Assembly (NCBI GenBank): GCA_029262875.1
Contig: JAJCYO010000079.1
Location: forward strand, 1 to 36,651
DNA: 36,651 bases
From: Flavobacteriales bacterium
GTDB taxonomy: Bacteria; Bacteroidota; Bacteroidia; Flavobacteriales_E; Vicingaceae
Direction: 5' to 3'
Every line of letters starts with the position of its first letter. Positions within the stretch are counted from its first letter, which is position 1. This document shows positions 802-18,372 of the stretch, one piece after another. The position numbers were made by a program, and so were the translations under genes. A model generated the notes under the pieces. It did no database searches. It was not told the DNA's origin and saw only the letters and a program-made list of their open reading frames with translations.

Positions 802-851
802 CCCTATTTAGACCTGCCAAATTTAGGTCTCAATTGAGAGGCTTTTTTTTG

Positions 852-925
852 TGGGCCCACCAGGGCTCGAACCTGGGACCCCTTGATTATGAGTCAAGTG
901 CTCTAACCAACTGAGCTATAGGCCC
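852..925 (-). tRNA. tRNA, anticodon CAU (probably tRNA-Ile2, possibly elongator tRNA-Met)
   Basis: A full 74-nt cloverleaf can be folded on the minus strand. The acceptor stem is GGGCCTA/TGGGCCC, the D-arm is AGCTCAGTTGGTTAGAGC, the anticodon arm is CTTGA-CTCATAA-TCAAG with CAU, and the T arm is CCAGG-TTCGAGC-CCTGG with discriminator A. CCA is not encoded. A CAU tRNA can be elongator Met or the lysidine-modified Ile2. The acceptor pairs C4-G69 and C5-G68 fit the TilS determinants of E. coli tRNA-Ile2, so Ile2 is favoured but not proven. The gene is the integration target of the element to its right: everything from the anticodon loop to the 5' end is repeated at 9064-9103, so the 5' half present here is probably element-derived. 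Confidence 0.93.
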
Positions 926-983
926 TTTCTAATTAGGACTAGAAATAGACTGCAATTTTACGTATAAGTTGGGAGTTAAGCAA
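886..983. repeat. Left attachment repeat (98 bp)
   Basis: Direct repeat of 9064-9161 with a single difference (C at 939, T at 9117). It begins in the anticodon stem-loop, covers the 5' half of the tRNA (886-925), and continues 58 bases into its promoter. Identity stops at 885/886 and at 983/984. Confidence 0.9.
953..983 (-). promoter_or_regulatory. Promoter of the CAU tRNA
   Basis: Read on the minus strand there is a -33 TTG (983-981), a 20-base spacer, and TAAAATTG (960-953), one mismatch from TAnnTTTG. The start would fall about 20 bases upstream of the tRNA 5' end. The -33 box ends exactly at the outer limit of the 98-bp att repeat, so the repeat carries the entire promoter. Confidence 0.55.
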
Positions 984-1053
984 CAAACCTGACTTAATTT
1001 TTGTTGCTTCCTTTACCTGCTTATTGTAGGGGAATATTTAGTATCTGAATAAC

Positions 1054-1077
1054 TCACCTGCAAATTCACCTGCAAAT
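1054..1077 (+). repeat. Integrase arm-type sites, two tandem 12-mers
   Basis: TCACCTGCAAAT occurs twice head to tail (1054-1065 and 1066-1077). A weaker copy, TTACCTGC, is at 1013-1020. A third close copy, TTACCTGCAAAT, lies inside the right end at 8993-9004 in the same orientation. Short repeated sites just inside both att sites are what tyrosine integrases bind with their N-terminal arm-binding domain. Confidence 0.5.
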
Positions 1078-1094
1078 TTTACTTGACAGTGATG

Positions 1095-1114
1095 TGCTAC
1101 AAAATTAAGTAGCA
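1095..1114. promoter_or_regulatory. Inverted repeat at the integrase start codon
   Basis: TGCTAC (1095-1100) and GTAGCA (1109-1114) are perfect inverted arms around an 8-base loop. The right arm ends on the A of the integrase ATG. This could be an operator for autoregulation or an RNA hairpin that hides the start codon. Confidence 0.4.
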
Positions 1115-2334
1115 TGATACACTTAAAAACTACCTGTGATAAACGCAGGATTAAGAAAGATGGCACCAGTCCAATCGTCTTTAGAATTTCCCTTAACGGT
1201 AAATCCAGAGATGTAGCAAGTGGATTCTCCTGTTTACCTAATCACTGGGATAAGAATAACAGTTGTGTTAAGCCGAAAACACCTGAGTTAAAAATAATGG
1301 GGCAGAGACTTAAAGATAAGGAGTTAATGCTTTTGGACAAGTTAAGGAAGTATGAGCAGAACTTCCCCAACGGATCTGATGTGCAAATGGTGAAGAATCA
1401 TCTTTGTGCAAAAGAGGAGAAGCCCAGAACGGTAGAGAAGCTGTGGTTAGAAGAAGTATCAAGGATGGAGAAAGCCAACCGCTATGGAAATGCTAATAAC
1501 TACAGTAGCGCTTTAGGTGGGGTAAAACAGATTACCTCATTAGATGTTCCTTTTGAAAGAATAGACTACACATGGCTGGTAGAACTTGATACTAACCTTA
1601 GAGCGAAAGGGCTAAAAGTTAATAGTGTTGCAGTTTATATGCGTACCTTAAGAAGCATCTACAACAAAGCTATTAATTACGGAATAGCTGATGCAAATGC
1701 TTATCCTTTCCGTAGATACAGAATAAAATCTGAATCTACTGTACCCAGAGTTGCATCTATAGAAGAACTACGCCAGTTCTTTGACTTCACTCCTGCTGAT
1801 AACAAGCATTATAACGCATGGTGCTATGGTAGACTTATCTTTCTGCTCCGTGGAATCAACTTTACGGATTTAGCTTTACTTACACGTGAAAATCTAAAAC
1901 ACGGCAGGGTGGTGTACAAACGGGCTAAAACACATAAACTGTACTCCATTAAGCTGTTACCTCTTGCTGATGAAATAATCAAAAGCTACATGGATGATGG
2001 TAGAGAGGCACTCCTACCGATTTTAACTAATCAGGAGCTATACAACATCAGCAAACTACCTGAGCGGATAGGACAACAACGGAAGAATACCAATAAGTGG
2101 CTCCGTCAAATTGGAGAGAAACTGGAGCTAACAGAAAAATGTACCAGCTATATGTTTCGTTATAGCCATGCATCAGCTTGCCAGAAACTTGGATATGCAA
2201 AAGAACTTATCAGCCACAGTCTTGGCCATTCTTTTGGCGTGCAAGTAACCAATTGCTACTTGGAGGATTATGATTTAGAGGTTATAGACCAGATGAATAT
2301 GGTAGTGTGTAATAGAGTAATTAGGGGAGTTTAA
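1114..2334 (+). CDS. Tyrosine recombinase/integrase
   Basis: A 406-aa site-specific recombinase that presumably integrates and excises the element at the tRNA. The N-terminal third looks like the arm-binding/SAM-like domain of Bacteroidota phage integrases. The catalytic domain shows R246 (LLRGINF), a Lys near 272 (RAKTHK), R349 in TSYMFRYSHA, H372 (SLGHS) and the nucleophile Y382 (NCYLEDYD). The first His of the classical HxxR box is a Tyr (Y346), as in many Bacteroidetes integrases. The gene sits immediately inside the left att repeat, reading inward, with arm-type repeats and an inverted repeat before it. It ends 8 bases from the convergent lipoprotein gene, and a hairpin can form over both stops (2321-2354). 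Confidence 0.93.
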   Translation: MIHLKTTCDKRRIKKDGTSPIVFRISLNGKSRDVASGFSCLPNHWDKNNSCVKPKTPELKIMGQRLKDKELMLLDKLRKYEQNFPNGSDVQMVKNHLCAKEEKPRTVEKLWLEEVSRMEKANRYGNANNYSSALGGVKQITSLDVPFERIDYTWLVELDTNLRAKGLKVNSVAVYMRTLRSIYNKAINYGIADANAYPFRRYRIKSESTVPRVASIEELRQFFDFTPADNKHYNAWCYGRLIFLLRGINFTDLALLTRENLKHGRVVYKRAKTHKLYSIKLLPLADEIIKSYMDDGREALLPILTNQELYNISKLPERIGQQRKNTNKWLRQIGEKLELTEKCTSYMFRYSHASACQKLGYAKELISHSLGHSFGVQVTNCYLEDYDLEVIDQMNMVVCNRVIRGV

Positions 2335-2342
2335 AAGCTTCT

Positions 2343-2990
2343 CTAATTAAACTCTCTCACTGGTCTACACTTAGCTGGATTTGAAGTGTTTCTCGGGTAC
2401 TCGTCTCCAGTAAAAAAGTTAATTCCCCAAGCTGCTCCTAAGCTTTCTTGGGTCGAGCTATGATAAACCTGACCAGCAAAGTTAGTGGGGTAAAGAGGGT
2501 AAAGTATAGTGTAAATCAATCTTAGTTCATCTATACTGGGTAAAAACCAGTCAGAATAGCCTCCATAACTTAAGGTATCACATAAATATGCCATATTGTT
2601 ACCCGACCCCTGTGCGACTAAAATAGAATCTGTATTTGTGGCACCTGAACCTACTGTAGAATCAGTTGCACCAGTCATTATATAGCTACCGTTCCACCAT
2701 ATTGATGAGAAGTTTGTATTGCCATAAAAATCATAAATGGCTACCAATCCTGAGCCATTAGCAGAATCCACATGAAATATTATTCCTGCCTGATATCTCT
2801 TTCCAATAAAGCTATCCACAGGGTTGTATGATAATAAATTTGAAATATTTACACCTAAGTCTAACTGCTGCTGTATGTGAGTAGGAGCATAATTGGAAGT
2901 GTTTTCAGGTGGTATAGGTCTTTCTTCCTTAGAACATCCTAAGAAAAAAATCAGGAAAGAACAGAATAGTATGTAGTGGACTGGTTTCAT
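2343..2990 (-). CDS. Lipoprotein with Lcl/DUF1566-like C-terminal domain
   Basis: 215 aa. The N-terminus is a lipoprotein signal ending in the lipobox FFLGC, so C19 would be lipidated and the protein anchored in an envelope membrane. The C-terminal part has hallmarks of the Lcl C-terminal/DUF1566 family: a GGYSDWFLPSIDEL box, YHSSTQ, a W-containing AWGINFF stretch and CRPVREF at the end. The family is extracellular or surface-exposed, and its exact role is usually unknown. It is the last gene of a minus-strand cassette (3842 to 2343) inside the element. Its first residues (MKPVHYIL) closely resemble those of the upstream gene (MKPLYYIL), suggesting a duplicated signal-peptide region. It is likely cargo, not mobility machinery. 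Confidence 0.75.
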   Translation of the reverse strand: MKPVHYILFCSFLIFFLGCSKEERPIPPENTSNYAPTHIQQQLDLGVNISNLLSYNPVDSFIGKRYQAGIIFHVDSANGSGLVAIYDFYGNTNFSSIWWNGSYIMTGATDSTVGSGATNTDSILVAQGSGNNMAYLCDTLSYGGYSDWFLPSIDELRLIYTILYPLYPTNFAGQVYHSSTQESLGAAWGINFFTGDEYPRNTSNPAKCRPVREFN

Positions 2991-3014
2991 AATAATAAAG
3001 GTACAGAAATAGTG

Positions 3015-3470
3015 TTATTTTGATACTTCTTCAGGATAGTTCTCTATCTTATCATGAAAAACTTGATGGTTAAAAACTACTTTTTGATCCTGATTAAGTT
3101 TAGGAATTAAGCACCAGTGGCTAAAGACTACTCCATTTTTGAACATTCCATAAACCGTTTCTATGGTATTATGGCTGTATATTCCAGTCTGTCTATCATA
3201 TACGGTTTCACACTTAAAAATAGGTCTACTCCCTGAGCCATAAGTTAGCCCAATGAGGGTGTACTTTTCAAAGTCTATGTAGCCTATGTTTATTGCACAT
3301 CCTGTAAAAAAATCTTGATTCCTCCTGTACTCTTTCTTGGAGGTAAACACTTTTTCACCCTTAACTTGACAACTTACTTCAACTTCTACACAGTCTAATG
3401 TGTCTTGAGAATAACCACTTAATGTTAGCCCCAACAAGCAGCAGATTAATATGTAGTAAAGTGGTTTCAT
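3015..3470 (-). CDS. Secreted hypothetical protein
   Basis: 151 aa when started at the ATG at 3470. A longer reading from 3566 is possible but would overlap the upstream gene by 100 bases. The chosen start begins with a clear signal peptide (MKPLYYILICCLLGLTLSGY, cleavage probably before QDT) and overlaps the stop of the 62-aa gene as ATGA, a typical translational coupling. The mature part has several Cys and no domain I recognise. It is an envelope or periplasmic cargo protein of the element, co-transcribed with its neighbours. Confidence 0.6.
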   Translation of the reverse strand: MKPLYYILICCLLGLTLSGYSQDTLDCVEVEVSCQVKGEKVFTSKKEYRRNQDFFTGCAINIGYIDFEKYTLIGLTYGSGSRPIFKCETVYDRQTGIYSHNTIETVYGMFKNGVVFSHWCLIPKLNQDQKVVFNHQVFHDKIENYPEEVSK

Positions 3471-3655
3471 GACTTCTTCTTTTTTCTCATGCTTATGCCT
3501 AATAAGATTAAACTTAAGACCATAAAACTTGGTCCAGAATAGATTCCTTTGAATGCATCTGGCCAATGCATGACCTTAAACATGCATCCTGTACCTAATA
3601 GCATCAGCCCCATCAACATTACCACCAGTGATATAATGAAAAGAGCTTTTCCCAT
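3467..3655 (-). CDS. Small membrane protein with GldL-like FKxxHWP motif
   Basis: 62 aa with two hydrophobic helices (about 4-26 and 41-56) and a basic tail (RKKKKS). The loop between them reads MFKVMHWPDA. This resembles the GxxFKIxHWPGA motif found in the membrane part of GldL and in many small Bacteroidota inner-membrane proteins of unknown role. Its stop overlaps the start of the next gene (ATGA), so the two are probably translated together. It is not GldL itself, because it lacks the cytoplasmic domain. Confidence 0.6.
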   Translation of the reverse strand: MGKALFIISLVVMLMGLMLLGTGCMFKVMHWPDAFKGIYSGPSFMVLSLILLGISMRKKKKS

Positions 3656-3707
3656 GCTCTAAAGATAACTAATTCTGGTGAGCTTTATTATGTTAAGTAG
3701 AATCTGC

Positions 3708-3842
3708 TCACAAAAAGTACATCAGAAGAAACAGCCCAAGTATTACCATTGCTATAATGCCTAACCCTAACCAGCTATTACCCTGACCTTTGTGCTTTCC
3801 CATCCAGTACCAGCCTTTATTTTCTCCAGGTTCTTTATGCAT
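3708..3842 (-). CDS. Tiny single-pass membrane protein, 44 aa
   Basis: This frame begins MHKEPGENKGWYWMGKHKGQ and continues into one strongly hydrophobic helix (residues about 24-44) that ends the protein. The soluble N-terminus is Gly/Lys/Trp-rich. It lies 52 bases upstream of the 62-aa membrane protein on the same strand and would be the first gene of the envelope cassette. The clean hydrophilic-to-hydrophobic layout supports a real gene. Function unknown. Confidence 0.5.
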   Translation of the reverse strand: MHKEPGENKGWYWMGKHKGQGNSWLGLGIIAMVILGLFLLMYFL

Positions 3843-3913
3843 CACCTAAAAGTACACCTGATTGGTCACATAACAAGAAGCTACTTTTCAGAACTTTTTA
3901 ACAGCTGTTGATA

Positions 3914-4312
3914 TTACTCCAAAAACTTAAACTTATCGTCAGGGAGGTGCCTCATTAAACCTTTATGAATACGTCTAACGCCTTCTAATGTATTTCTTAA
4001 GTAATCTGGGTAGTACACAGGATTAACCTGATATATTCGTGTACCGCCAACATGTACCAACTGACCTGTATAAGCCAAATAATGAAAGGCTTTATACACT
4101 GTTCTAATTCTGGGTTTCTGTACGCTGGGAAGAGTTATAATGAACTCTTTACAAAAGTTTGAATCGGCAGTTACATCTAATCCTATCCGTGCTTCAGCTA
4201 ATATGAACCCCAGTAAGTCTACTGCGCATTTTTCTACTGCTTTAGTTGGCTTTAAAGTGAAGGTTAAGCCAGCATCTATTTCTTCTAATGTTAATTTTTT
4301 CATGTTGTTCAT
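3914..4312 (-). CDS. Hypothetical protein, possible winged-helix fold
   Basis: 132 aa, directly downstream of the polymerase gene (12 bases), so probably co-transcribed. Residues about 70-105 look like a winged-helix: helix TVYKAFHYLAYTG, then a hairpin QLVHVGGTRIYQVNP. This resembles the wing segment of plasmid initiators and small replication-associated proteins. It might assist replication initiation or copy control for the element, but this is inference from position and a short stretch. Confidence 0.5.
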   Translation of the reverse strand: MNNMKKLTLEEIDAGLTFTLKPTKAVEKCAVDLLGFILAEARIGLDVTADSNFCKEFIITLPSVQKPRIRTVYKAFHYLAYTGQLVHVGGTRIYQVNPVYYPDYLRNTLEGVRRIHKGLMRHLPDDKFKFLE

Positions 4313-4324
4313 CTTTTAATAGTA

Positions 4325-5869
4325 CTAAGAACCAAGTGGCTTCCACTCATCTTCTGTTACTGTAGGTGATATTCCAATATGCTGTTGTAACACATCTTCC
4401 ATCACTTTTCTTGCTACAGCTTTATACTGCTCAGGAACAGTAATTGAATCATGGATAGTTATTACTGGTATTTTCAGTTTGGTTAGCTTTTTGGCTATGA
4501 CATCAAGAAACAAGTGGCTCTCCATCCTCTGTAACAACATTGGAGCATTCTTGTAAGCTGTAGTATCTTTATATGTACCACATTTCAACAGCAGTAGCAG
4601 ATTACCCTCAGCTGGGAACAGCTTTAAGAACTCCTGAAATGGTTTCATCTCTTCTCTACTTTTCCTGTTCTTTGGGTTACAGTAAAACATGTGCATCACT
4701 TCTAATTTTGCTTTATCTCGGCTACTAAATAAATCCCCATCTTTATCTAAAAATTTTCCACTGAACTCCTGTTGTAGAAACTCATATAACCCCTGCTGAC
4801 ATAAACTTGAGAAGTTTAAATTCTGTATCCCTTTAGTAGTATGGGATTGAGCTATACTCTGCAACATAATAGATAAAGGCTTAAGCTGTTTACTATTTAC
4901 TGCCTTTACTACTTCATCTCTACTACCTACTGGTATCACTGATGTATCTATTACTACCTTCTTTTCTTTTTTCATCTTCTGTAGGTGGTTGTACATGTCA
5001 ATGTGTAATCCCTTCAAGCTAAACTTACCCTCTCTTATTATGAAATCATCATGTAGAATACCATTCAGGAGATATGGTTGGCTGTTCTTTAAATCTAAGC
5101 TCCACAAGGCTAACCCGTCATACTTAAGGAAGTTTCTAAACTCTGATGGGCTGTAGGTTAATATGCTGTGAAAACGGTTGCCAAAAGCATCTACAGAGCA
5201 GTTATACTTCTGCTGTACGAAATCCTCCAACAATTGTTTATGTCTCTCTAATCTTAAGTTAGGATGCAGCATTTCTTTCTTCTTTATTGTGCCTTTAGCC
5301 ATCATCTGCTGCTCCGATTTGTATTTCACTCTGTAAAGTTTATCCTCCTGATTTATCCAGTTCTCTGTTGCTTTCTTATCTATTGTTAGCTTGCCAGTAT
5401 TTAGCACGTCAGTTAGATGTTTTACTGGCTTCAGATTAATCGATTTTAGCTGCTGTATTTCTGTATCTACTTTTTTAATCTGCCGTAAAACACAAGCATC
5501 TGTAACTTCTAAAGACTGACATGCACCATAGATAAACTTCTCATGGATGCGGTATTTCATGCTTGTTATTCCAGCAATGTAGCTATCTTTAAACTCAATA
5601 ATACCATGCTTAATTAAGGCTTCTCTGTATTTCTTATAATGGTAGCCCATCACTTTTTTAAGGAATTCAGCCTGTAGTGATACCCACAATTTATCACTGG
5701 ATAATTGCTCGTCATCCTTCATTCTGTAGATACAATTGCTGTAAATAGTACCCACCATATACACCAGCCTGTCATGAATTTTGTTTACACTGGCTCCTTT
5801 TTCATACTGCTGTAGTTGTTGAGCAATCATCTTTAAATCAACACCCACAGGAAGAAGATATTTTTTCAT
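4325..5869 (-). CDS. Single-subunit polymerase of the PolA/T7-RNAP superfamily (TV-Pol-like)
   Basis: 514 aa with the three palm/fingers motifs in order. Motif A is LDLKNSQPYLLN with D259 and Q264. Motif B is SSRDKAKLEVMHMFYC with R384, K388, M392 and Y396, the same R-x3-K-x3-M-x3-Y spacing as T7 RNA polymerase (R627, K631, Y639) and PolA. Motif C is TIHDSITVPE with D474 in HDS. Before motif A there is GNRFHSILTYSPSEFR (230-245), and before motif C a helix LLQRMESHLFLDVIAKKL. No 3'-5' exonuclease is present. The N-terminus (about 60-110) resembles a winged-helix DNA-binding region. The pattern fits the TV-Pol family reported from transposons and viruses, which was proposed to combine primase and DNA polymerase activity. 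It probably replicates the element. Confidence 0.7.
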   Translation of the reverse strand: MKKYLLPVGVDLKMIAQQLQQYEKGASVNKIHDRLVYMVGTIYSNCIYRMKDDEQLSSDKLWVSLQAEFLKKVMGYHYKKYREALIKHGIIEFKDSYIAGITSMKYRIHEKFIYGACQSLEVTDACVLRQIKKVDTEIQQLKSINLKPVKHLTDVLNTGKLTIDKKATENWINQEDKLYRVKYKSEQQMMAKGTIKKKEMLHPNLRLERHKQLLEDFVQQKYNCSVDAFGNRFHSILTYSPSEFRNFLKYDGLALWSLDLKNSQPYLLNGILHDDFIIREGKFSLKGLHIDMYNHLQKMKKEKKVVIDTSVIPVGSRDEVVKAVNSKQLKPLSIMLQSIAQSHTTKGIQNLNFSSLCQQGLYEFLQQEFSGKFLDKDGDLFSSRDKAKLEVMHMFYCNPKNRKSREEMKPFQEFLKLFPAEGNLLLLLKCGTYKDTTAYKNAPMLLQRMESHLFLDVIAKKLTKLKIPVITIHDSITVPEQYKAVARKVMEDVLQQHIGISPTVTEDEWKPLGS

Positions 5870-6341
5870 CCTTTAGTAAATTAAGTTAAACCCTTTGCCT
5901 TCATGGCATTAGGTTGATTCCTTAGTAAATTTTCTTAGTTGATTGATTTAGTAGAACCAGAGATTTCTGGTTCATAAAAGACGCAAATGTTAAAAAACAG
6001 TTGCCTCCCATAAAAAATATATTCCACAGCATGAGGTTACCACCTGATAAAACTACCCCCGTCCTTTTATTTTTAGCCCCATCCCCCCGTTAAAAGCAGA
6101 ACAAGAATACATGCCTCCGCTGCTTATATCAGGCGGATGTGTTGAAGTGAGAGAGAGGATACCTCAAACACCACTTTTCTTTATAAAAAGGAATCCAGCA
6201 AACACCCGTTTTTGCACCATCTATATAGCTACAGATTTTACTTTATTAGATTCTTAAACTTTAAAAATGTAATTATCCATTACAAGAACCCTTCACATAA
6301 CTCAGAATTATGGATGATTTCACTAACTTTAACCTCAGATT
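5870..6341. other. Gene-free control region, candidate origin
   Basis: 472 bases between the divergent polymerase and 6342 genes. It contains a perfect 8-bp inverted repeat GAACCAGA/TCTGGTTC (5954-5961, 5966-5973, loop GATT). The direct repeat TTAGTAAATT occurs at 5873-5882 and 5922-5931. A short pyrimidine-rich block lies at 6055-6090, and an imperfect CCGC/GCGG hairpin at 6117-6136. Such a stretch next to a replication gene could hold an origin, operators and two divergent promoters, but no definite iteron array is seen. Confidence 0.35.
5954..5973. promoter_or_regulatory. Inverted repeat upstream of the polymerase gene
   Basis: GAACCAGA GATT TCTGGTTC, 8-bp perfect arms with a 4-base loop, about 85 bases upstream of the polymerase start. 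Possible operator, perhaps for the XRE protein encoded nearby, or a transcript-leader hairpin. Confidence 0.4.
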
Positions 6342-6665
6342 ATGGCAATACCGATAGAATTTTTTAGTGTAATTGTACCAAAACAGGTTATCCAGCAGAA
6401 ATATGATGGTGGCTTAGACCAGTACAAAGCTGATGTACCTAATGCATCTTATAAAGAAGATGAGCACCTTACACGTGTGGGATTAATGGATGATTTAAGT
6501 CTCACTTTCTTCTGTGAAAAGATTATCTCCAAAGGGCTGCACTTCCATGAAGCACCAAATTACTCCACAGATTTTGTTGTGGTTCAACAGCTACAGGGGA
6601 AAAGATGGAAAGCGGAGTGGTTAAATCAAACCGATGATGGTGACTGTGTTAATTATTGTAATTAA
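6342..6665 (+). CDS. Hypothetical protein, 107 aa
   Basis: I do not recognise this protein. It is soluble, acidic and has no signal peptide. The first 60 residues are mixed alpha/beta, and a Trp-rich segment near the end (KRWKAEWLNQTDDGD) is notable. It is divergent from the polymerase gene, across the putative origin region. Its last 17 bases overlap the convergent XRE gene, so the two 3' ends are antisense to each other. It is probably an accessory gene of the element. Confidence 0.5.
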   Translation: MAIPIEFFSVIVPKQVIQQKYDGGLDQYKADVPNASYKEDEHLTRVGLMDDLSLTFFCEKIISKGLHFHEAPNYSTDFVVVQQLQGKRWKAEWLNQTDDGDCVNYCN

Positions 6666-6879
6666 AATCAGCTAAGAACTCCACTAAGGTCATGTCTAAT
6701 CCTTTAGCTACTTGAGTAATTATAAATAAGGACGGTGAGTAACCACCACTTTCTAACTTGTGGAGGTTAGGTCTATCCATTTCTATGATTTCAGAAAAAG
6801 CAGCACCAGTATAGCCTTTAGCTTCACGGTGCTTTCTAATATGTTCACCTATCTTCTCTTGAAACTCAGCCTTATCCAT
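6649..6879 (-). CDS. XRE/Cro-type helix-turn-helix regulator
   Basis: 76 aa, nearly all a single HTH_3 domain. There is an initial helix IGEHIRKHREAKG, helix 2 GAAFSEIIEM, recognition helix DRPNLHKLESG, and a C-terminal helix ending TLVEFLADF. Proteins of this size act as dimeric repressors of integrative elements or as antitoxin-like regulators. Its gene is divergent from 7038 across 158 bases that contain a TAnnTTTG box (6955-6962), and the tail overlaps the 6342 gene. Likely controls the element's genes. Confidence 0.85.
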   Translation of the reverse strand: MDKAEFQEKIGEHIRKHREAKGYTGAAFSEIIEMDRPNLHKLESGGYSPSLFIITQVAKGLDMTLVEFLADFNYNN

Positions 6880-6954
6880 ACTATCAGAGTATAACTTTTA
6901 CTCAAAAAGATGCTTTTTCTTTAATTAAGCTGTTATACTATAGTACACATTTAG

Positions 6955-6962
6955 TATATTTG
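6955..6962 (+). promoter_or_regulatory. Possible -7 box (TATATTTG) for the 7038 gene
   Basis: Exact TAnnTTTG match in the XRE/7038 intergenic region. It would give a leader of about 70 bases before the ATG at 7038. No clean -33 TTTG is visible. The AT-rich surroundings (TATACTATAGTACACATTTAG) could also carry XRE operators. Confidence 0.4.
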
Positions 6963-7037
6963 ATGAGCTAAACACTATAAGTTATAAAAACACTGATAAC
7001 GATATTACTATTATTACCACTGAGCCTATTTTCTCAG

Positions 7038-7349
7038 ATGTATAAAATAACACATTATGAGAAAGTGAACGTGGCAGATGAGCAAGTAATTTCAGCTGGG
7101 AAAATGGAAGGCTTATATGTAGCATTTTCAGAAACAGCAATTATCACGTATAGTTCTACGGATAGGTATTACGATGGAACTTATAAAGTCCTTAAATGGA
7201 GAACTGGAGAAGACGGATTTATAGTGTATACAGCCACGCTAAATGGGCATGCTAAAGAGCTGTATCTGGACAAATCCAGTCTTCTGTTTGCACTAAAGAA
7301 TCCTGGAGAGAATGAGATATATCTGTTTCATTTAGAAACGCTAAAATAA
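7038..7349 (+). CDS. Hypothetical protein, 103 aa
   Basis: A soluble, probably all-beta small protein. I do not recognise a family. Alternating hydrophobic residues (GLYVAFSETAIITYSS, GFIVYTATLNG, EIYLFHLETL) suggest a compact beta barrel or sandwich. It is divergent from the XRE regulator, so it may be the regulated partner. Toxin-like activity cannot be judged from the sequence. It is followed by tiny hydrophobic frames. Confidence 0.5.
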   Translation: MYKITHYEKVNVADEQVISAGKMEGLYVAFSETAIITYSSTDRYYDGTYKVLKWRTGEDGFIVYTATLNGHAKELYLDKSSLLFALKNPGENEIYLFHLETLK

Positions 7350-7359
7350 CTAAAAGACC

Positions 7360-7577
7360 ATGAAGCACTTTTATAAAAAATTAGGAGAATGTACATAGAA
7401 ATACTGGGTTAAGTGTTAGGAGAAACAAATAATGAAAATAGCATAATCTCTGCAGTAGCTTTTATAGCTTCTTTAGGACTGTATCTAATGTATGGAGGAG
7501 TTAGAAATCTTATAGTTACATGCTTGTTATTTGGTTTTTTCTGCTCATTTTTCAGAAAAGTAATTAGAAAAGATTAA
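7360..7577 (+). pseudogene. Broken tiny membrane-protein gene
   Basis: The ATG at 7360 opens MKHFYKKLGECT and then hits TAG (7396-7398), followed by KYW. This parallels the intact neighbour at 7592, which reads MKNFFRNLQEATWKYLGG. The TAG sits exactly where the neighbour has the TGG of TWKY. After a further stop the reading continues in another frame (7413-7577). That 54-codon frame has two hydrophobic helices, a basic tail RKVIRKD, and only a GTG as possible start. It is best read as a nonsense- plus frameshift-damaged paralogue, though the 54-codon frame could still be expressed. Confidence 0.4.
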
Positions 7578-7591
7578 AACACCTACACAAC

Positions 7592-7717
7592 ATGAAGAAC
7601 TTTTTTAGAAACTTGCAAGAAGCTACATGGAAATACTTAGGAGGAGCTATACTTCTGCTTTTAGTTCTACATCTACTGGTTGGAGCGTTCTTCATTATAC
7701 TACGGGAAGTGTTTTGA
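7592..7717 (+). CDS. Tiny single-pass membrane protein, 41 aa
   Basis: The layout is a basic amphipathic start (MKNFFRNLQEATWKYLGG), one long hydrophobic helix (about 19-38, Leu/Val/Phe-rich) and a short REVF tail. The intact ATG and the similarity of the first 15 residues to the broken copy at 7360 support a real gene family. Its size and layout are shared by type I toxin peptides and by small membrane regulators. Nothing in the sequence decides between them. Confidence 0.45.
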   Translation: MKNFFRNLQEATWKYLGGAILLLLVLHLLVGAFFIILREVF

Positions 7718-8246
7718 GTGCTCCTTACAGCCTTCCCTACCACACACCTCCACACAAATCCCCTTCACGGCACACCTAAACCCTACGCTTCTCAAGGTTA
7801 TAAGGTATTCCTCAGAAGTCATCAGCAAAAACTCACGCCAAGATGGATGAACATATATTTCATAGAAGATCACCCACCCAAATGGGCAGAGTCTTGTCAT
7901 GATTTTTGCGTTCTCTCCTTCTTCCTCATGGTAGGTTACTCTTGAATTATAGCACCTTCATTTTGTTGCTCTCCATTCAGAAGCTATAATCCAACCACCT
8001 ACAGTAATTTTGGCTTCGCCTTGCAGTTCATCAAGAGCTGCGGACACTATGTTATTAAGCCTGATGGCATCAGGAAATCCTTGTCCAGTAGAACCAAGAG
8101 CCTCGAAACAAGTTCTCCATTCTTGCCTCTACTTACATACCTCCAATCGTACTTACAGCACTTTGCTTGGAGGACTCTTGTGAAGCTCAGCAATGCGGCT
8201 ACGCCTAAAAGTGTTACCTTTATACAGATTATTTAGATTATAAACT
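7718..8246. other. Gene-poor stretch with decayed open frames
   Basis: 529 bases with no convincing gene. The plus strand is unusually C-rich for this window, hinting at former minus-strand coding. On the minus strand a 56-codon stop-free frame (8128 to 7961) reads like protein (WRTCFEALGSTGQGFPDAIR) but has no start codon. An overlapping frame above it (about 8234 to 8050) also reads like protein but lacks an ATG at the head. These are probably remnants of a lost gene, split by frameshifts. Short frames on the plus strand look like shadows. Confidence 0.35.
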
Positions 8247-8708
8247 ATGTACTGTATAGAATGTGGCACCGAGCTTCCTAATGAAGCAAACTTCTGTTCA
8301 ACTTGTGGTAAGAAACAGGTAAGAATAGATTTTAGCAAGGGTTTTAGAGAAGGGCCGCGGTTGAACTCTACTGAAAAAGAAGAGAGGTTTTCATTTTCAA
8401 GAAGCAATGAAAACTATGATAGGGATGTATATAGTGACCTCGTGGAGTTTCTAAAAGAAGAAGGATATGGAGACATCCCTATTCCCAATTTGGACTGGGA
8501 TTCTGATTCGTGGACTCATAAGATGGTTGAACCTGGTAGTGGCTGTGGGTGGAATGCTTATGTATGTCACCCTATTACTATTTACTGTAATACTGATTTA
8601 CCATTCTCCTATGACCTTACGGTTTACAATGAAAAGCACCCCGCACATGATTCAGTTTGGACAGATGCCATTAGCTGGTTCAAGCCGCACCAGTTAAAAG
8701 ATGATTAA
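8247..8708 (+). CDS. Zinc-ribbon protein of unknown function
   Basis: 153 aa. The N-terminus is a classical zinc ribbon with two CxxC knuckles (C3/C6 and C17/C20 in CIECG...FCSTCGKK). A charged linker (about 22-58) follows, then a C-terminal domain rich in Trp, Asp and aromatic residues (NLDWDSDSWTHKMVEPGSG, CGWNAYVCHPITIYCN) that I do not recognise. It has no signal or membrane segment. It is the last gene before the right end of the element, so it is likely cargo or an accessory factor. Confidence 0.6.
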   Translation: MYCIECGTELPNEANFCSTCGKKQVRIDFSKGFREGPRLNSTEKEERFSFSRSNENYDRDVYSDLVEFLKEEGYGDIPIPNLDWDSDSWTHKMVEPGSGCGWNAYVCHPITIYCNTDLPFSYDLTVYNEKHPAHDSVWTDAISWFKPHQLKDD

Positions 8709-8713
8709 CAGAC

Positions 8714-8764
8714 CAAGCAGAGGAATTTACTCCATCACTTACTATAGCTGTGTAGGTCTGCTTG
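8714..8764. repeat. Inverted repeat CAAGCAGA/TCTGCTTG
   Basis: Perfect 8-bp arms at 8714-8721 and 8757-8764 around a 35-base loop. It starts right after the stop of the zinc-ribbon gene and touches the next, larger inverted repeat. Confidence 0.5.
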
Positions 8765-8765
8765 T

Positions 8766-8850
8766 ACATCAGTTTTAGTATTCAAAGTTGTGGACTACCC
8801 AAATCCTTAAAGCAACCTCCTTGCTCAACTTTAAACACTAAAACAGATGT
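8766..8850. repeat. Imperfect 25-bp inverted repeat
   Basis: Arms 8766-8790 (ACATCAGTTTTAG...) and 8826-8850 (...CTAAAACAGATGT) match at 22 of 25 positions around a 35-base loop. It is too long for a simple terminator and lacks a T run. It could be a protein-binding site, a replication or transfer origin, or a folded RNA. Confidence 0.6.
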
Positions 8851-8992
8851 TTACTCTACTACTTTAGAAGATGCGGATAGATATATCCTTTATAAGCAGA
8901 AAAAAGTACATACAGCTGATAGAACTCTCTAATTTATAACTCACCATCATGGCTGATAAAGTAATTATAAACTAAGCACTTTTACTGTCAAT

Positions 8993-9004
8993 TTACCTGC
9001 AAAT
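8993..9004 (+). repeat. Right-end integrase arm-type site
   Basis: TTACCTGCAAAT, one mismatch from the tandem TCACCTGCAAAT pair at the left end, 60 bases inside the right att repeat. Confidence 0.45.
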
Positions 9005-9063
9005 AATAAAGGTGACTTTCTACATCCCTTTCAGGGTGTGGAGTTCAGAAGCTAAGGAAGTTC

Positions 9064-9161
9064 ATTATGAGTCAAGTGCTCTAACCAACTGAGCTATAGG
9101 CCCTTTCTAATTAGGATTAGAAATAGACTGCAATTTTACGTATAAGTTGGGAGTTAAGCAA
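9064..9161. repeat. Right attachment repeat with tRNA 5' half
   Basis: Copy of 886-983. It holds 40 bases of the tRNA (anticodon loop to 5' end, 9064-9103) plus the promoter segment. The orphan tRNA promoter (-33 TTG at 9161-9159, TAAAATTG at 9138-9131) points into the element. It is probably the original chromosomal 5' half displaced by integration. The HAD/mtnA operon begins 34 bases further right. Confidence 0.88.
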
Positions 9162-9194: not shown

Positions 9195-9821
9195 GTGGTT
9201 CAATTAACAGGAATAAAAAATATCATATTGGATTTAGGAGGCGTTATCATTAACCTAAACCCTGAAGCAACGATTAATTCTTTTAAAAGGATTTTTAACG
9301 ATCAATTCGATGCAATGCAGAAAGACCTGCATCAAAAAAACGTATTGGATAAGTTTGAAACAGGTGAACTTAGTTTAGATGAGTTTATTTTATTTTTTCA
9401 AACTCATCAGCCAACACTTTCTTCGGAAAAAATTATTAATTCATGGAATAGTATGTTATTAGATATCCCAAAAGAAAGATTAGCATTAATTCAAAATTTA
9501 TCAAAACGTCACCGCGTTTTTTTATTGAGCAATACCAATCCTATTCATTTGGAATTTATCGATAATTATGTCAGGCTAAATTTCGAGTTGAGTTCCATGG
9601 CTACTCCTTTTGAAAAAGCATACTACTCTCATCAAATGGGATTAAGAAAACCTGATCCTAAAATATTTGAAACGATAATAGAGGATAAAAATCTATTAAC
9701 AGATGAAACCTTATTTATAGATGATTCAGAACAGCATATTATTACAGCAAAACAATTAAATTTGAAGACGCACCATTTATTAGAAACAGAAAATATTGTA
9801 GATTTATTCAATGCTAATTAA
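9195..9821 (+). CDS. HAD-family phosphatase
   Basis: 208 aa, GTG start (the only plausible one near the front). HAD motifs are in order: motif I ILDLGGVI with nucleophile D13, where the second Asp of DxD is replaced by Gly as in YihX-like HAD-IA proteins. Then motif II LLSNTN (S113), motif III RKPDP (K153) and motif IV FIDDS (D177/D178). A helical cap lies between motifs I and II. It overlaps mtnA by 11 bases, so it is the first gene of a three-gene operon. It may dephosphorylate a sugar phosphate in the same pathway, but the substrate cannot be read from the sequence. The att repeat ends only 33 bases upstream, so the operon promoter lies at the element junction. Confidence 0.85.
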   Translation: MVQLTGIKNIILDLGGVIINLNPEATINSFKRIFNDQFDAMQKDLHQKNVLDKFETGELSLDEFILFFQTHQPTLSSEKIINSWNSMLLDIPKERLALIQNLSKRHRVFLLSNTNPIHLEFIDNYVRLNFELSSMATPFEKAYYSHQMGLRKPDPKIFETIIEDKNLLTDETLFIDDSEQHIITAKQLNLKTHHLLETENIVDLFNAN

Positions 9822-10920
9822 CGGGAAACATCAGCAAACCATTTGGGTAAATGAACAAGATGAAATCTTAATACAGGTTTTCGATCAACGTCATTTTCCG
9901 CATAAAGTTGAGGTATTTGACATTAGAACGACTAAGGATGCTGCCTTTGCCATTAAAGAAATGGTGGTTAGAGGAGCACCATTAATAGGAATAACAGCAG
10001 CTTACGGAATGTACTTGGCTTGCATTGAGGCAAGAGGTGAAAAGAAACCTAATCTATATTTGGCCGAAGCAGCTACTGAATTAAATGCGACAAGACCTAC
10101 AGCGATTAATTTAGCTTGGGCAGTTCATGAATTGTTGAGCGCTGTACATAAAGTAAAAGATCCTGAAGAACGGATAAAAGTGGCATTACAAAAGGCCAAC
10201 CAACTAAAAGAAGAAGATGTTGCCATTAGTAAAAACATTGGGTTACATGGTCTTGGAGTAATAAAGGAAATAGCAGCAAAGAAAAATGGTGAGCCGGTAA
10301 ATATTTTAACGCATTGCAATGCAGGCTGGTTAGCCACCATCGATTGGGGAACTGCTTTGTCTCCAATTTACCATGCACAAGAAGCTGGAATTGATGTACA
10401 TGTATGGGTTGATGAAACCAGGCCAAGAAACCAAGGTGCAAATCTAACTGCATTTGAGTTAAATGAGCAAGGAGTTCGACATACCTTAATCAATGACAAT
10501 ACTGGAGGCCACTTAATGCAGCATGGTATGGTGGATATGGTAATTGTTGGGACCGACCGGACTGTTCGGAACGGAGATGTAGCGAATAAAATAGGAACTT
10601 ACCTTAAGGCCTTAGCTGCCCATGACAACAATGTTCCTTTTTATGTAGGGTTACCTTCTTCAACATTAGATTGTTCCATTGCAGATGGAGTAAAGGATAT
10701 TCCAATTGAAACCAGGGATGGAAATGAAGTGAAATACATGCAAGGTAAAGTTGATGGTGAAATTAAATCAGTTTTGATTTGTTCTGAAGATACGCCAGCG
10801 TTAAACTATGGTTTTGATGTAACACCGGCAAAATACATTACTGGACTAATTACAGAACGTGGAATTTGTGAAGCTTCGGAAGAAGGAATTAGAAGTTTAT
10901 TTCCTGAAAAATTTGGCTAA
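9811..10920 (+). CDS. mtnA: S-methyl-5-thioribose-1-phosphate isomerase
   Basis: 369 aa, the full family length, eIF2B-related fold. It converts 5-methylthioribose-1-phosphate (or the 5-deoxyribose analogue) to the ribulose-1-phosphate form. Diagnostic segments are MVVRGAPLIG (51-60), NILTHCNAG with catalytic C169, TAFELNEQG, and IVGTDRTVRNGD with catalytic D249. These match C160 and D240 of the B. subtilis enzyme. It starts inside the end of the HAD gene, and its stop shares a base with the next ATG (TAATG), giving tight coupling with the class II aldolase that would act on its product. Confidence 0.95.
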   Translation: MLINGKHQQTIWVNEQDEILIQVFDQRHFPHKVEVFDIRTTKDAAFAIKEMVVRGAPLIGITAAYGMYLACIEARGEKKPNLYLAEAATELNATRPTAINLAWAVHELLSAVHKVKDPEERIKVALQKANQLKEEDVAISKNIGLHGLGVIKEIAAKKNGEPVNILTHCNAGWLATIDWGTALSPIYHAQEAGIDVHVWVDETRPRNQGANLTAFELNEQGVRHTLINDNTGGHLMQHGMVDMVIVGTDRTVRNGDVANKIGTYLKALAAHDNNVPFYVGLPSSTLDCSIADGVKDIPIETRDGNEVKYMQGKVDGEIKSVLICSEDTPALNYGFDVTPAKYITGLITERGICEASEEGIRSLFPEKFG

Positions 10921-11513
10921 TGGCAATTGATGAAGGAGTCATAAAATTTAATTGCGATTGGAGTGATGAAGAACTCGCAATATCAGTTCCTAATGAACTG
11001 AAGATCTGGAGAGATAAAATGCATCAATTAAAACTTATTGGGGAATACGATGACATTAAAATTGGTTATGGAAACATTAGCATTAAAATAGCAGAAGGTA
11101 TCTTAATTTCTGGAACTCAAACTGGGAATAGTTACCCAATTCAGAGCAATGATTTTGCTTTGGTGACAGCTTATAGCATGGAACACAATCAAGTAACATG
11201 CAAAGGAAAAATAAAGGCTTCTGCAGAGAGTTTAACACATGCGGCTGTCTATGAATGCGACCACACAATTAAAGCCATTATTCATATCCATAACAAGGAA
11301 CTGTGGGGTAAATTAATAGACACTGTACCAACCTCAAACAGAAACGTTCCTTATGGCACGGCAAAAATGGCTACAGAAATAAAACGACTGTTTGATGAAA
11401 CCAATATAGTCCAAGAAAAGATTATGGTAATGGGAGGTCATGAAGAAGGAATTATTGCTTTTGGGAAAAACTTAAAAGAAGCAGGACAATTGATTCTTAA
11501 TTATGCTACTTAA
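10920..11513 (+). CDS. Class II aldolase/adducin-family protein
   Basis: 197 aa. Zinc-dependent aldolase fold: substrate loop GNIS and SGTQTG, catalytic acid E103 in SAESLTHAA, metal ligands H122 and H124 in IIHIHNKE, and H174 in GGHEEG. These correspond to E73, H92, H94 and H155 of fuculose-phosphate aldolase. Coupled to mtnA, it could be MtnB (dehydratase of the methionine salvage pathway) or the Ald2-type aldolase of the DHAP shunt, which cleaves the MtnA product to DHAP and an aldehyde. No mtnK, mtnC or mtnD is in the window. The 3' end overlaps the convergent epimerase gene by 8 bases. Confidence 0.8.
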   Translation: MAIDEGVIKFNCDWSDEELAISVPNELKIWRDKMHQLKLIGEYDDIKIGYGNISIKIAEGILISGTQTGNSYPIQSNDFALVTAYSMEHNQVTCKGKIKASAESLTHAAVYECDHTIKAIIHIHNKELWGKLIDTVPTSNRNVPYGTAKMATEIKRLFDETNIVQEKIMVMGGHEEGIIAFGKNLKEAGQLILNYAT

Positions 11514-14721: not shown

Positions 14722-17700
14722 ATGAGCATAGAAAAAGAAATAGAAAAGAGAATTTTGGTGTTGGATGGTGCCATGGGTACAATGATTCAGCGGCATAATT
14801 TAACGGAAGAAGATTTTAGAGGGACTGTTTTTACTGACAGTAAAATTCCTTTACAAGGAAACAATGATTTACTCTCTATAACGCGTCCCGAAATTATTAA
14901 GTCAATTCATGCAGAATACTATTCGGCTGGAGCAGACATTGTAGAAACCAATACCTTTAGCGGAACAACCATTGCTCAAGCAGATTATGAATTAGAAAAT
15001 GCTGTTTATGACATTAATTACCAATCGGCTAAAATTGCCAAAGAAGTAGCAGCAGAATTTACCGCAAAAGAACCAACTAAACCTCGTTTTGTTGCTGGTG
15101 CTATGGGTCCAACAAACAGAACGGCATCCATGTCACCTGATGTGAATGATCCGGGTTATAGAGCAATTACTTTTGATCAATTAGTAGTAGCATATAAAGA
15201 ACAGGCAAAGGGCTTAGTTGAAGGAGGAGTAGACTTATTATTGGTAGAAACTATTTTTGATACCCTAAATGCAAAAGCAGCATTATTTGCCATTGATGCT
15301 TATTTCGAAGAGAGTGGAACTAAACTTCCAATCATGGTTTCAGGTACCATTACCGATGCCAGTGGGAGAACACTATCAGGGCAAACGGTAGAGGCATTTT
15401 TAATTTCAGTTTCACATATACCATTATTAAGTGTAGGGTTTAACTGCGCATTAGGAGCAAAACAATTAAGACCACACATTCAAACCATAGCAGAAAGAAC
15501 TGATTTTTATGTGAGTGCATATCCGAATGCTGGATTGCCAAATGAGTTTGGTGAATACGATGAAGAAGCACCAGAAACAGCAAGCCAAATTGAAGATTTT
15601 ATCAAAGATGGACTAATTAATATTATTGGAGGTTGTTGTGGAACAACACCAGAGCATATTAAAGCCATGGCAGAGGTGGCTGCTAACTATACACCAAGAA
15701 CAAAACAAAAAACATCATCATTGCCTAATTTTAGTGGATTAGAGCCATTATTGGTGAGGCCAGAAAGTAATTTTGTGAACGTTGGAGAACGAACCAATGT
15801 AACAGGATCATTAAAATTTAAACGATTAATTAAAGAAGAAAATTACGAAGAAGCGATTTCTGTTGCCTTAGATCAAGTTGAAGGTGGTGCTCAAGTCATT
15901 GATGTAAACATGGATGAAGGAATGATTGAGTCAGAAGAAGTGATGACTCGTTTCTTAAATTTGATAGCATCAGAACCAGACATTGCCAAATTGCCAATAA
16001 TGATTGACTCTTCTAAATGGTCCGTGATTGAGGCAGGATTAAAATGTACTCAAGGAAAGTCCATTGTCAATTCGATATCCTTAAAAGAAGGGGAAGCTGT
16101 ATTTTTAGAAAGAGCGAAACTCATTAAAAGGTATGGAGCCGCGGCAATTATTATGGCTTTCGATGAAAAAGGACAGGCAGATTCCTATGAAAAGAGAATT
16201 CAAATATGTGAAAGGGCCTACCACCTCTTAAGAGATAAATTAGATTTTCCTGCACACGATATTATTTTTGATCCTAACATTTTAACCGTTGCTACAGGGT
16301 TAGAAGAACACAATAATTATGCGGTAGATTTTATAGAATCTACTCGTTGGATAAAACAAAATTTACCAGGAGCTTTAGTAAGTGGAGGTGTAAGTAACAT
16401 TTCATTTTCTTTTAGAGGAAACAATGTAGTACGAGAAGCCATGCATTCTGCATTTCTTTTTCATGCGATAAAAGCAGGGATGGATATGGGAATTGTAAAT
16501 CCTGGAATGCTTGAAGTTTATGCAGATATTCCAAAAGAATTATTAGAGCATGTAGAGGATGTATTATTGAATAGAAGAGATGATGCAACAGAACGATTGG
16601 TTGATTTTGCTGAGACGGTTGGAGCAAAAAAAGAGGTAGAAAAGGAAACTCAGGAGTGGAGAAACGAGTCAGTAGAAAAGAGATTGTCTCATGCTTTAGT
16701 AAGAGGGATAGTCGAATTTATTGATGAAGATGTAGAAGAATGTCGCCAGAAATTTGACAGACCAATTGAGGTGATAGAAGGTCCTTTAATGGACGGGATG
16801 AATGTAGTAGGAGACTTGTTTGGAGAAGGAAAAATGTTTTTGCCTCAAGTAGTGAAAAGTGCACGCGTAATGAAAAAAGCGGTTGCTTATTTGTTGCCTT
16901 ATATAGAAGCAGAAAAAGGAGAAGGAAAACGTTCTGCAGGAAAAATATTAATGGCTACAGTAAAAGGTGATGTTCATGACATAGGTAAAAACATTGTTGG
17001 AGTGGTTTTGGGTTGCAACAATTATGAGATTATCGACTTAGGAGTGATGGTCCCTGCTGAAAAAATTATAGAAGTTGCCAAAGAAGAAAATGTAGATATT
17101 ATTGGGTTAAGTGGACTAATTACGCCTTCTTTAGATGAGATGGTTCACGTGGCAAAAGAGTTAGAAAGAGAAGGAATGGAAACTCCCTTGTTGATTGGTG
17201 GCGCAACCACATCTAAGGTACATACCGCAGTAAAAATTGAAGAAAATTTTACAAAAGGGCAAACGGTTCATGTACTGGATGCCTCCAGAAGTGTTCCTGT
17301 TGTTGGGAAATTGTTAAACGAACATAAAGTAGGGTTTGTAAAAGAAATACAAGACGATTATCAGCGTTTACGAGATCAGCACAACAAAAAAAGAGCAAGA
17401 AAAGAATTTCTTCCCATAGCGTCAGCGCATCAAAATAAATTTCAAATTGATTTTGAGCAAGAAAAACCAATTGTCCCTAAATTTTTGGGAACAAAGGTTT
17501 TTGAAGATTTTGATTTAGACGAAATTTCATCCTACATTGATTGGAGTCCTTTTTTCAGAACCTGGGAATTGGCAGGAAAGTATCCAGCAATTTTAGAAGA
17601 TGAAATAGTTGGTGAACAAGCCCAGCATTTATTTGAAGATGCTCAAAGAATGTTGAGCCAAATCATTAGCGAAAAATGGTTGAAAGCGAAAGCGGTCATT

Positions 17701-18372
17701 GGAATTTGGGAAGCAAATACGACCAATGATTCAAAAATAAAAATTAATGGAAGTGGAGTTGAATTGAACCAACTTCGACAACAGGCAAAAAAAGCAGCTG
17801 GGGTTCCAAATATCTCATTGGCTGACTTCGTTGCACCAGAAAGTTCTGGTATCCAAGATTATGTAGGAGGATTTGTGGTAACAACTGGATTAGGGATAGA
17901 AGAGCACATTAAAAAATTTGAAGCAGATCACGATGATTACAATGCTATTTTATTAAAAGCGTTAGCCGATCGATTAGCTGAAGCTTTTGCAGAACTAATG
18001 CATAAAAAAGTTAGAATAGAATATTGGGGTTATGCAGGTGATGAGCAATTAGACAATGAAGCGTTAATCAAAGAAAATTATAAAGGGATACGTCCGGCTC
18101 CTGGGTACCCTGCCTGTCCTGATCATACCTTAAAAAGAGAATTGTTTAGACTGCTGGATGCAGAAAAAAACACCGAAGTAGAATTGACAGATGGTTTGGC
18201 GATGTATCCTACTGCCTCTGTTAGCGGCTTTTATTTTGGACATCCTCAAGCTAAATATTTCGGATTAGGAAAGATAGAAAAGGATCAAATAGAGCAGTAT
18301 TCAAAGCAAAAAAGCATTACTACAGCAGAAGCTGAAAAATGGCTGGCACCGAATTTGAGTTATAATCCTTAA
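14722..18372 (+). CDS. metH: Cobalamin-dependent methionine synthase
   Basis: 1216 aa, close to E. coli MetH (1227). It transfers a methyl group from methyltetrahydrofolate to homocysteine through cobalamin. Domains: homocysteine-binding 1-330 with zinc ligands C242 (GFNCALG) and C305/C306 ([10 protein letters not shown]). Then pterin-binding about 345-620 ([12 protein letters not shown]), the B12 cap about 640-735, and B12-binding about 740-880 with axial H752 ([10 protein letters not shown]). The reactivation domain is about 890-1216 ([12 protein letters not shown]). All modules are present and intact. It is single in its transcript, under the SAM-I riboswitch. Confidence 0.98.

Follow-up and report, generated by a model that had tools for sequence, protein, structure and literature searches.

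The TV-Pols were described in 2008 by Iyer, Abhiman and Aravind from elements that carry integrases and that have Bacteroidetes among their hosts (PMC2579912). The CcPol enzymes of SCCmec are counted among the TV-Pols, and CcPol-MP primes DNA in vitro (PMC7581432, PMC10061031), a reaction that needs dNTPs (PMC7581432). A further group, divPolA2, comprises divergent PolA proteins of Barbavirus, Vibrio and related phages; it was described from phages (Virol J 2024) and suggested to function either in repair or as an RNA polymerase (PMC11348598). Pipolins, finally, are tRNA-integrated elements whose only constant parts are the polymerase and the att sites, accompanied by recombinases and variable cargo (PMC7385651).

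We analyzed a 36,651-nucleotide stretch from a Flavobacteriales bacterium (hereafter, the window) and found that it encodes an intact enzyme of the TV-Pol/divPolA2 kind inside a small integrated element (Table 1). The element shares with pipolins the insertion in a tRNA gene and the overall composition but differs in having a family-A polymerase fold instead of the family-B piPolB, and priming has been demonstrated for piPolB alone (PMC7385651). A family-A polymerase domain in an integrative element is likewise found in CcPol-MP and the PolA-SSB primases (PMC7581432, PMC10061031); CcPol-MP, however, uses an OB-fold partner and a helicase, whereas the window polymerase has an orphan neighbor of 132 aa, and no helicase gene, D5-like ones included, was recognised by Pfam in the window element.

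The polymerase ORF starts with ATG and encodes the motif A, B and C residues named in the original prediction (D259, Q264, R384, K388, M392, Y396 and H473-D474-S475). Comparison of the protein with Pfam, NCBIfam and PDB sequences gave no relevant match, in the case of the PDB either with the single protein or with an 18-row profile; PHROG 4756, a family without an assigned function, matches a segment of about 50 residues near the C-terminus (4e-7). PADLOC gave no match, and the reading as a defence-system polymerase was dropped. Conservation was counted over 121 non-redundant full-length family members, most of which are only 20-30% identical to the window polymerase. Nevertheless, E450 is kept in all 121, D259, K388 and D474 in 120 each, Q264, P265, H473 and R232 in 119 each, and S263 in 118, whereas position 384 is occupied by R in 90 and by K in 23 (R or K in 113/121). 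The near-invariant pattern of the family thus reads hairpin R232, R245, D259-x-x-N-S-Q-P, Y362, R/K384-x3-K388, Q447-x2-E450 and H473-D474-S475, and the motif residues do not reflect chance. Such near-invariance of the catalytic residues at a low mean identity of the relatives indicates that the enzyme works: judged from the alignment, these residues are under strong purifying selection across the 121 relatives, and the retention of D259, K388, D474 and E450 makes it very probable that the window polymerase is catalytic.

Table 1. Features of the integrated element and its junctions (window coordinates)
Feature	Coordinates	Strand	Basis or remark
tRNA-Met (CAT), target; whole at left junction	851..925	-	ARAGORN, Rfam
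Left 101-bp direct repeat (att)	883..983		98% identical to 9061-9161
Integrated element between repeats	984..9060		direct repeats and uninterrupted sites
Two ACCTGCAAA repeats (starts 1056, 1068)	1056..1076		sequence search
Tyrosine integrase, 406 aa (Arm-DNA-bind_5, Phage_int_SAM_5, Phage_integrase)	1114..2334	+	Pfam, PHROG integrase
Lcl_C-domain putative lipoprotein, cargo	2343..2990	-	Pfam; homologue beside related polymerase fragment in G011 (L148)
155-aa ORF, cargo	3015..3482	-	ORF only
62-aa ORF	3467..3655	-	ORF only
132-aa orphan protein, 12 bp downstream of polymerase, same strand	3914..4312	-	no family
Divergent family-A polymerase (TV-Pol/divPolA2-like), 514 aa	4325..5869	-	fold, profile, conservation
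Motif C, H473-D474-S475	4445..4453	-	conservation; β-turn linking strands 470-472 and 475-479 of model
Motif B helix, R384-x3-K388-x7-Y396	4682..4720	-	conservation; helix 384-396 in AlphaFold2 model
Motif A, D259-LKNSQPYL	5069..5095	-	conservation
N-terminal winged-helix domain, aa 1-146	5432..5869	-	AlphaFold2 pLDDT 94; similar to winged helices of initiators and other proteins, Z ~6
Intergenic region between divergent genes, candidate origin	5870..6341		no iteron-like repeats
107-aa ORF	6342..6665	+	ORF; no Pfam match
76-aa HTH_3 (Cro/C1) regulator	6649..6879	-	Pfam
103-aa ORF	7038..7349	+	ORF; no Pfam match
153-aa zinc-ribbon protein, cargo	8247..8708	+	Pfam
Third ACCTGCAAA repeat	8995-9003		sequence search
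Right 101-bp direct repeat (att)	9061..9161		98% identical to 883-983

An AlphaFold2 model built from 68 sequences (pLDDT 85.6, pTM 0.84) has the predicted palm, fingers and thumb of the PolA class, that is, a family-A fold. The top PDB matches are all family-A DNA polymerases, namely apPOL, Klenow, Bst and Taq (Foldseek E from 3e-6) and, ranked by Z score, also T7 DNA polymerase and Pol theta (Z 12.5-14.6 for these and further matches over approximately 275 residues spanning 146-511). Taken together, apPOL, T7 DNA polymerase, Klenow and Pol theta reach Z 13-14.6. In the model, D259, which together with D474 forms the pair of palm aspartates, ends the strand 255-260, R384-Y396 lie on one helix, HD474 is located in a β-turn, and short strands surround R232. 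In PolA, motifs A, B and C typically occupy such a strand end, helix and β-turn, respectively. Thus, the right-hand polymerase of the PolA/T7 class that had been proposed from the motifs was recovered by structure prediction and comparison with known structures, along with the winged-helix front and the missing exonuclease domain, no exonuclease region being present in the model. The window polymerase shares the fold with bacterial DNA polymerase I (Z up to 14.6) but differs from it in the absence of the exonuclease domains, in a sequence similarity that is not significant and in having Gln at the position of the steric-gate Glu. A comparison of the family profile with nine Bacteroidota PolA proteins yielded E values of 0.06-0.08 with motif C alone in register, a match too shallow to serve as proof of kinship, which was set aside as such; over all profile comparisons with PolA the E values were 0.06-0.09, and the kinship to PolA accordingly rests on the predicted fold. 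The structural matches of the winged-helix front are generic, and the front was left without a family because plasmid initiators and ORC2, which are among the best matches, and MarR-type regulators all resemble it.

The profile comparison that was weak for PolA was clear for another group. The family profile matches nine divPolA2-like polymerases with an hhalign E value of 1.2e-19 over 188 columns, with D259, RxxxK and HDS in register. This comparison set, in which proteins from phages and from alphaproteobacterial plasmids are joined by a single Bacteroidota protein, is the divPolA2 group: it includes kin of AUR84708 and of barbaviruses, and the matches of its members include 115 Rheinheimera phage records and AUR84708 itself, the protein modelled in the divPolA2 paper (PMC11348598). 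A FastTree phylogeny separates all 121 family members from all nine divPolA2-like rows with a support of 100, and by profile the window family is a sister of the divPolA2 phage polymerases and the related alphaproteobacterial plasmid proteins. The two groups share the palm motifs A, B and C, the hairpin R, RxxxK, HDS and the absence of an exonuclease; the window family differs in forming a separate clade, mostly of Bacteroidota integrative elements with an integrase, in the N-terminal winged helix and in motif A, which is D-x-x-N-S-Q-P as opposed to DFxALHP in divPolA2. With regard to the conserved fingers aspartate of the TV-Pols, the D-x-Y of the divPolA2-like proteins aligns with G-[FL]-Y362 of the window family, in a gapped part of the alignment. 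The divPolA2 relatives (L237, L238, L239, L029 and L015) come from alphaproteobacterial plasmids and one Bacteroidota genome; the plasmid hosts include Thioclava, Paracoccus, Sphingomonas (with an integrase and an HTH gene) and Neorhizobium.

Compared with the published feature description of the TV-Pols (PMC2579912), the window polymerase agrees in most respects, as the original prediction had it. It has the Arg on a β-hairpin before motif A (R232), the two conserved palm aspartates, RxxxK in the first fingers helix (R384/K388) and, as the mobile-element gene expected nearby (integrase, resolvase, transposase or D5 helicase), a tyrosine integrase. Like the TV-Pols, it is a stand-alone minimal polymerase of an integrase-bearing mobile element, with no fused nuclease in the window protein; a Tenacibaculum-type relative (L006:643-2700) is a 730-aa frame with a C-terminal GIY-YIG homing-endonuclease domain. 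The model also structurally matches a virophage replication protein (Zamilon). In contrast to the TV-Pols, no D5-like helicase is seen beside the window polymerase. The suggestion of an undescribed class holds only in part: TV-Pol elements with integrases have been known since 2008 (PMC2579912) and divPolA2 since 2024 (PMC11348598), whereas in the literature searched we came upon no description of this particular polymerase family or of its broad distribution among tRNA-bounded elements of Bacteroidota. The family and the group of elements that carry it are therefore new and widespread but of a known, TV-Pol-like kind, and the enzyme is not categorically new.

The 101-bp repeat comprises the 5' half of tRNA-Met, as far as the anticodon loop, together with DNA upstream. 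Four genomes of the same genus (L249-L252) lack the element at this site; in them the two flanks are joined through a single copy of the repeat. The repeats and these empty sites show that a mobile element is indeed integrated in tRNA-Met, with a length of 8,178 bp (one repeat copy counted), in agreement with the proposal of a tRNA-integrated Bacteroidota element. The three ACCTGCAAA copies near both element ends look like candidate integrase arm sites. Two other expectations were borne out as well, in that the polymerase is the largest gene of the element and that no relaxase or phage structural genes were recognised, the search for packaging, capsid and terminase genes with Pfam and PHROG being negative. 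The proposed gene-free origin fared less well: the region between the divergent genes contains no sizeable ORF, but neither iterons nor strong repeats were found in it; the gap is there, and as an origin it is at most a candidate. For the 132-aa neighbor, there were no plasmid homologues, only marginal genome matches and no Pfam, PHROG or PADLOC family; it is a possible partner of the polymerase. The host genome carries its own PolA, and the element polymerase is thus an addition.

Searches with the protein and then with the profile showed that related loci are widespread in Bacteroidota elements and phages. Relatives were found in Bacteroidota genomes, at 70 named genome loci, in 80 kept IMG/VR contigs, in two Hymenobacter plasmids and in large uncultured phage genomes of 595-735 kb; viral contigs gave no match to the single protein but did match the profile. 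Among 86 non-redundant cellular Bacteroidota loci, a tyrosine integrase is located near the polymerase in 66, within 2.5 kb in 55 and within 600 bp in 29, against a background of 38 PF13102 integrases in approximately 73 Mb (about 0.5 per Mb) of 21 related genomes. The polymerase and the integrase are thus coupled across loci. Elements of about 9-18 kb that contain the polymerase and are delimited by direct repeats at tRNA genes also occur in Tenacibaculum, Fibrivirga, Phocaeicola, Prevotella, Dysgonomonas, Mesonia and a Chitinophagaceae MAG, seven genera or MAGs besides that of the window. A small HTH_17 gene of a type typical of excision factors adjoins the polymerase in 36 loci, other recurring neighbors are an AAA_24 NTPase, DUF3871 and RadC, and the cargo includes type IIG restriction-modification, a C5 methylase and candidate defence genes. 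The closest sister, in a Crocinitomicaceae MAG (L165), resides at tRNA-Arg, with the integrase 50% and the polymerase 32% identical. In the tree, the window polymerase belongs to a 51-row clade that consists almost entirely of cellular elements, and another clade is that of phages.

Several individual loci deserve mention. Flavobacteriaceae elements at tRNA-Ser(UGA) (L167-L190) have the gene order integrase, HTH_17, polymerase, after which many of them have a conserved block of genes for a TonB receptor and for FUR-like, P-type ATPase and AcrB-type proteins. A contig from the same genus as the window (L148) ends in a polymerase fragment, 63% identical over 41 aa, next to which lies an Lcl_C homologue; it holds either a remnant of a sister element or one that is cut off. 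Internal stops in the matched stretch (one TGA and one TAA in L043, one TGA in L046) seem to mark decaying copies. Both circular Hymenobacter plasmids with a homologue also hold an annotated replication initiator (Rep3 in one of them); the polymerase was accordingly rejected as their sole Rep and is not always the sole initiator.

We hold with moderate confidence that the polymerase is the conserved core enzyme of widespread tRNA-integrated Bacteroidota elements. Because of the association with integrase-bearing elements and by analogy to CcPol-MP and pipolins, it appears most likely that this enzyme primes and/or copies the excised circle, as a predicted A-family counterpart of the pipolin polymerase and of SCCmec CcPol. 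In the model that we propose, the integrase would insert the element at the tRNA gene and remove it, probably with a small HTH protein as excision factor, and the excised circle would then be copied. The winged-helix front could place the polymerase on the element DNA, the palm (D259 and D474, with two-metal chemistry) would make a primer and perhaps the first strand, and the host helicase and replisome would finish the copying. The Hymenobacter Reps speak against a simple Rep role. The lack of a recognised helicase and of iterons in the adjacent gap, the weak profile match to PolA and the repair or RNA polymerase function suggested for divPolA2 (PMC11348598) count against the proposed model more generally.

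The polymerase might instead be an accessory of the element, involved in gap filling after integration or excision, in repair or in bypass of blocks, and not the starter of replication. The coexistence of the plasmid homologues with Rep initiators fits such a role, as do the separate replicative polymerase of the divPolA2 phages and the variable context of divPolA2 (PMC11348598). Nevertheless, examination of bounded elements revealed no recognisable replication initiator besides it, and the polymerase adjoins the integrase in dozens of loci, which makes the accessory role unlikely, although it is the strongest of the competitors. A different product has to be considered as well, namely that the protein is a single-subunit RNA polymerase or an RNA primase. 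The steric-gate Glu of Pol I is E710, and motif C of T7 RNA polymerase is HDS. The window family has HDS, not HDE, and the steric-gate position (D+5) is Gln in 119 of the 121 members; RNA polymerase activity has, moreover, been proposed for divPolA2 (PMC11348598). On the other hand, all 50 of the 50 listed structural matches are DNA polymerases and the SCCmec primase depends on dNTPs (PMC7581432), so we consider synthesis of RNA improbable.

Slightly less credible still is the view of the element as a phage satellite, the polymerase of which drives helper-dependent replication. The small size, the combination of an integrase with a Cro-like regulator, the defence cargo of relatives and the homologues in phages are compatible with a satellite, but the element has no recognised packaging, capsid or terminase gene and no helper phage is known. 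A more far-reaching version of the preferred reading, in which the priming polymerase would define undescribed, widespread, self-replicating Bacteroidota integrative elements built on a minimal family-A primase-polymerase and exchanging it with huge phages, is possible but in our estimate rather doubtful.

Polymerases that start chains are few, and in the literature searched a single complex of the TV-Pol type, SCCmec CcPol-MP, has been shown to prime. The present family offers dozens of cultured hosts (Polaribacter, Winogradskyella, Chryseobacterium, Bacteroides, Phocaeicola and Dysgonomonas), and its compact elements make the prim-pol prediction of 2008 testable. It also links the phage divPolA2 to integrative elements and suggests a way in which elements of Bacteroidota that carry restriction-modification and other defence genes may be copied by an enzyme of their own.

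To the right of the element, HAD-like, MtnA-like and aldolase/MtnB-like ORFs (9195-11513, plus strand), read from the sequence, probably form a methionine salvage cluster that adjoins the tRNA-Met target. In the same direction, a SAM riboswitch (Rfam RF00162; 14564-14667, plus strand) precedes a methionine-synthase-like ORF of 1216 aa (14722-18372, plus strand).
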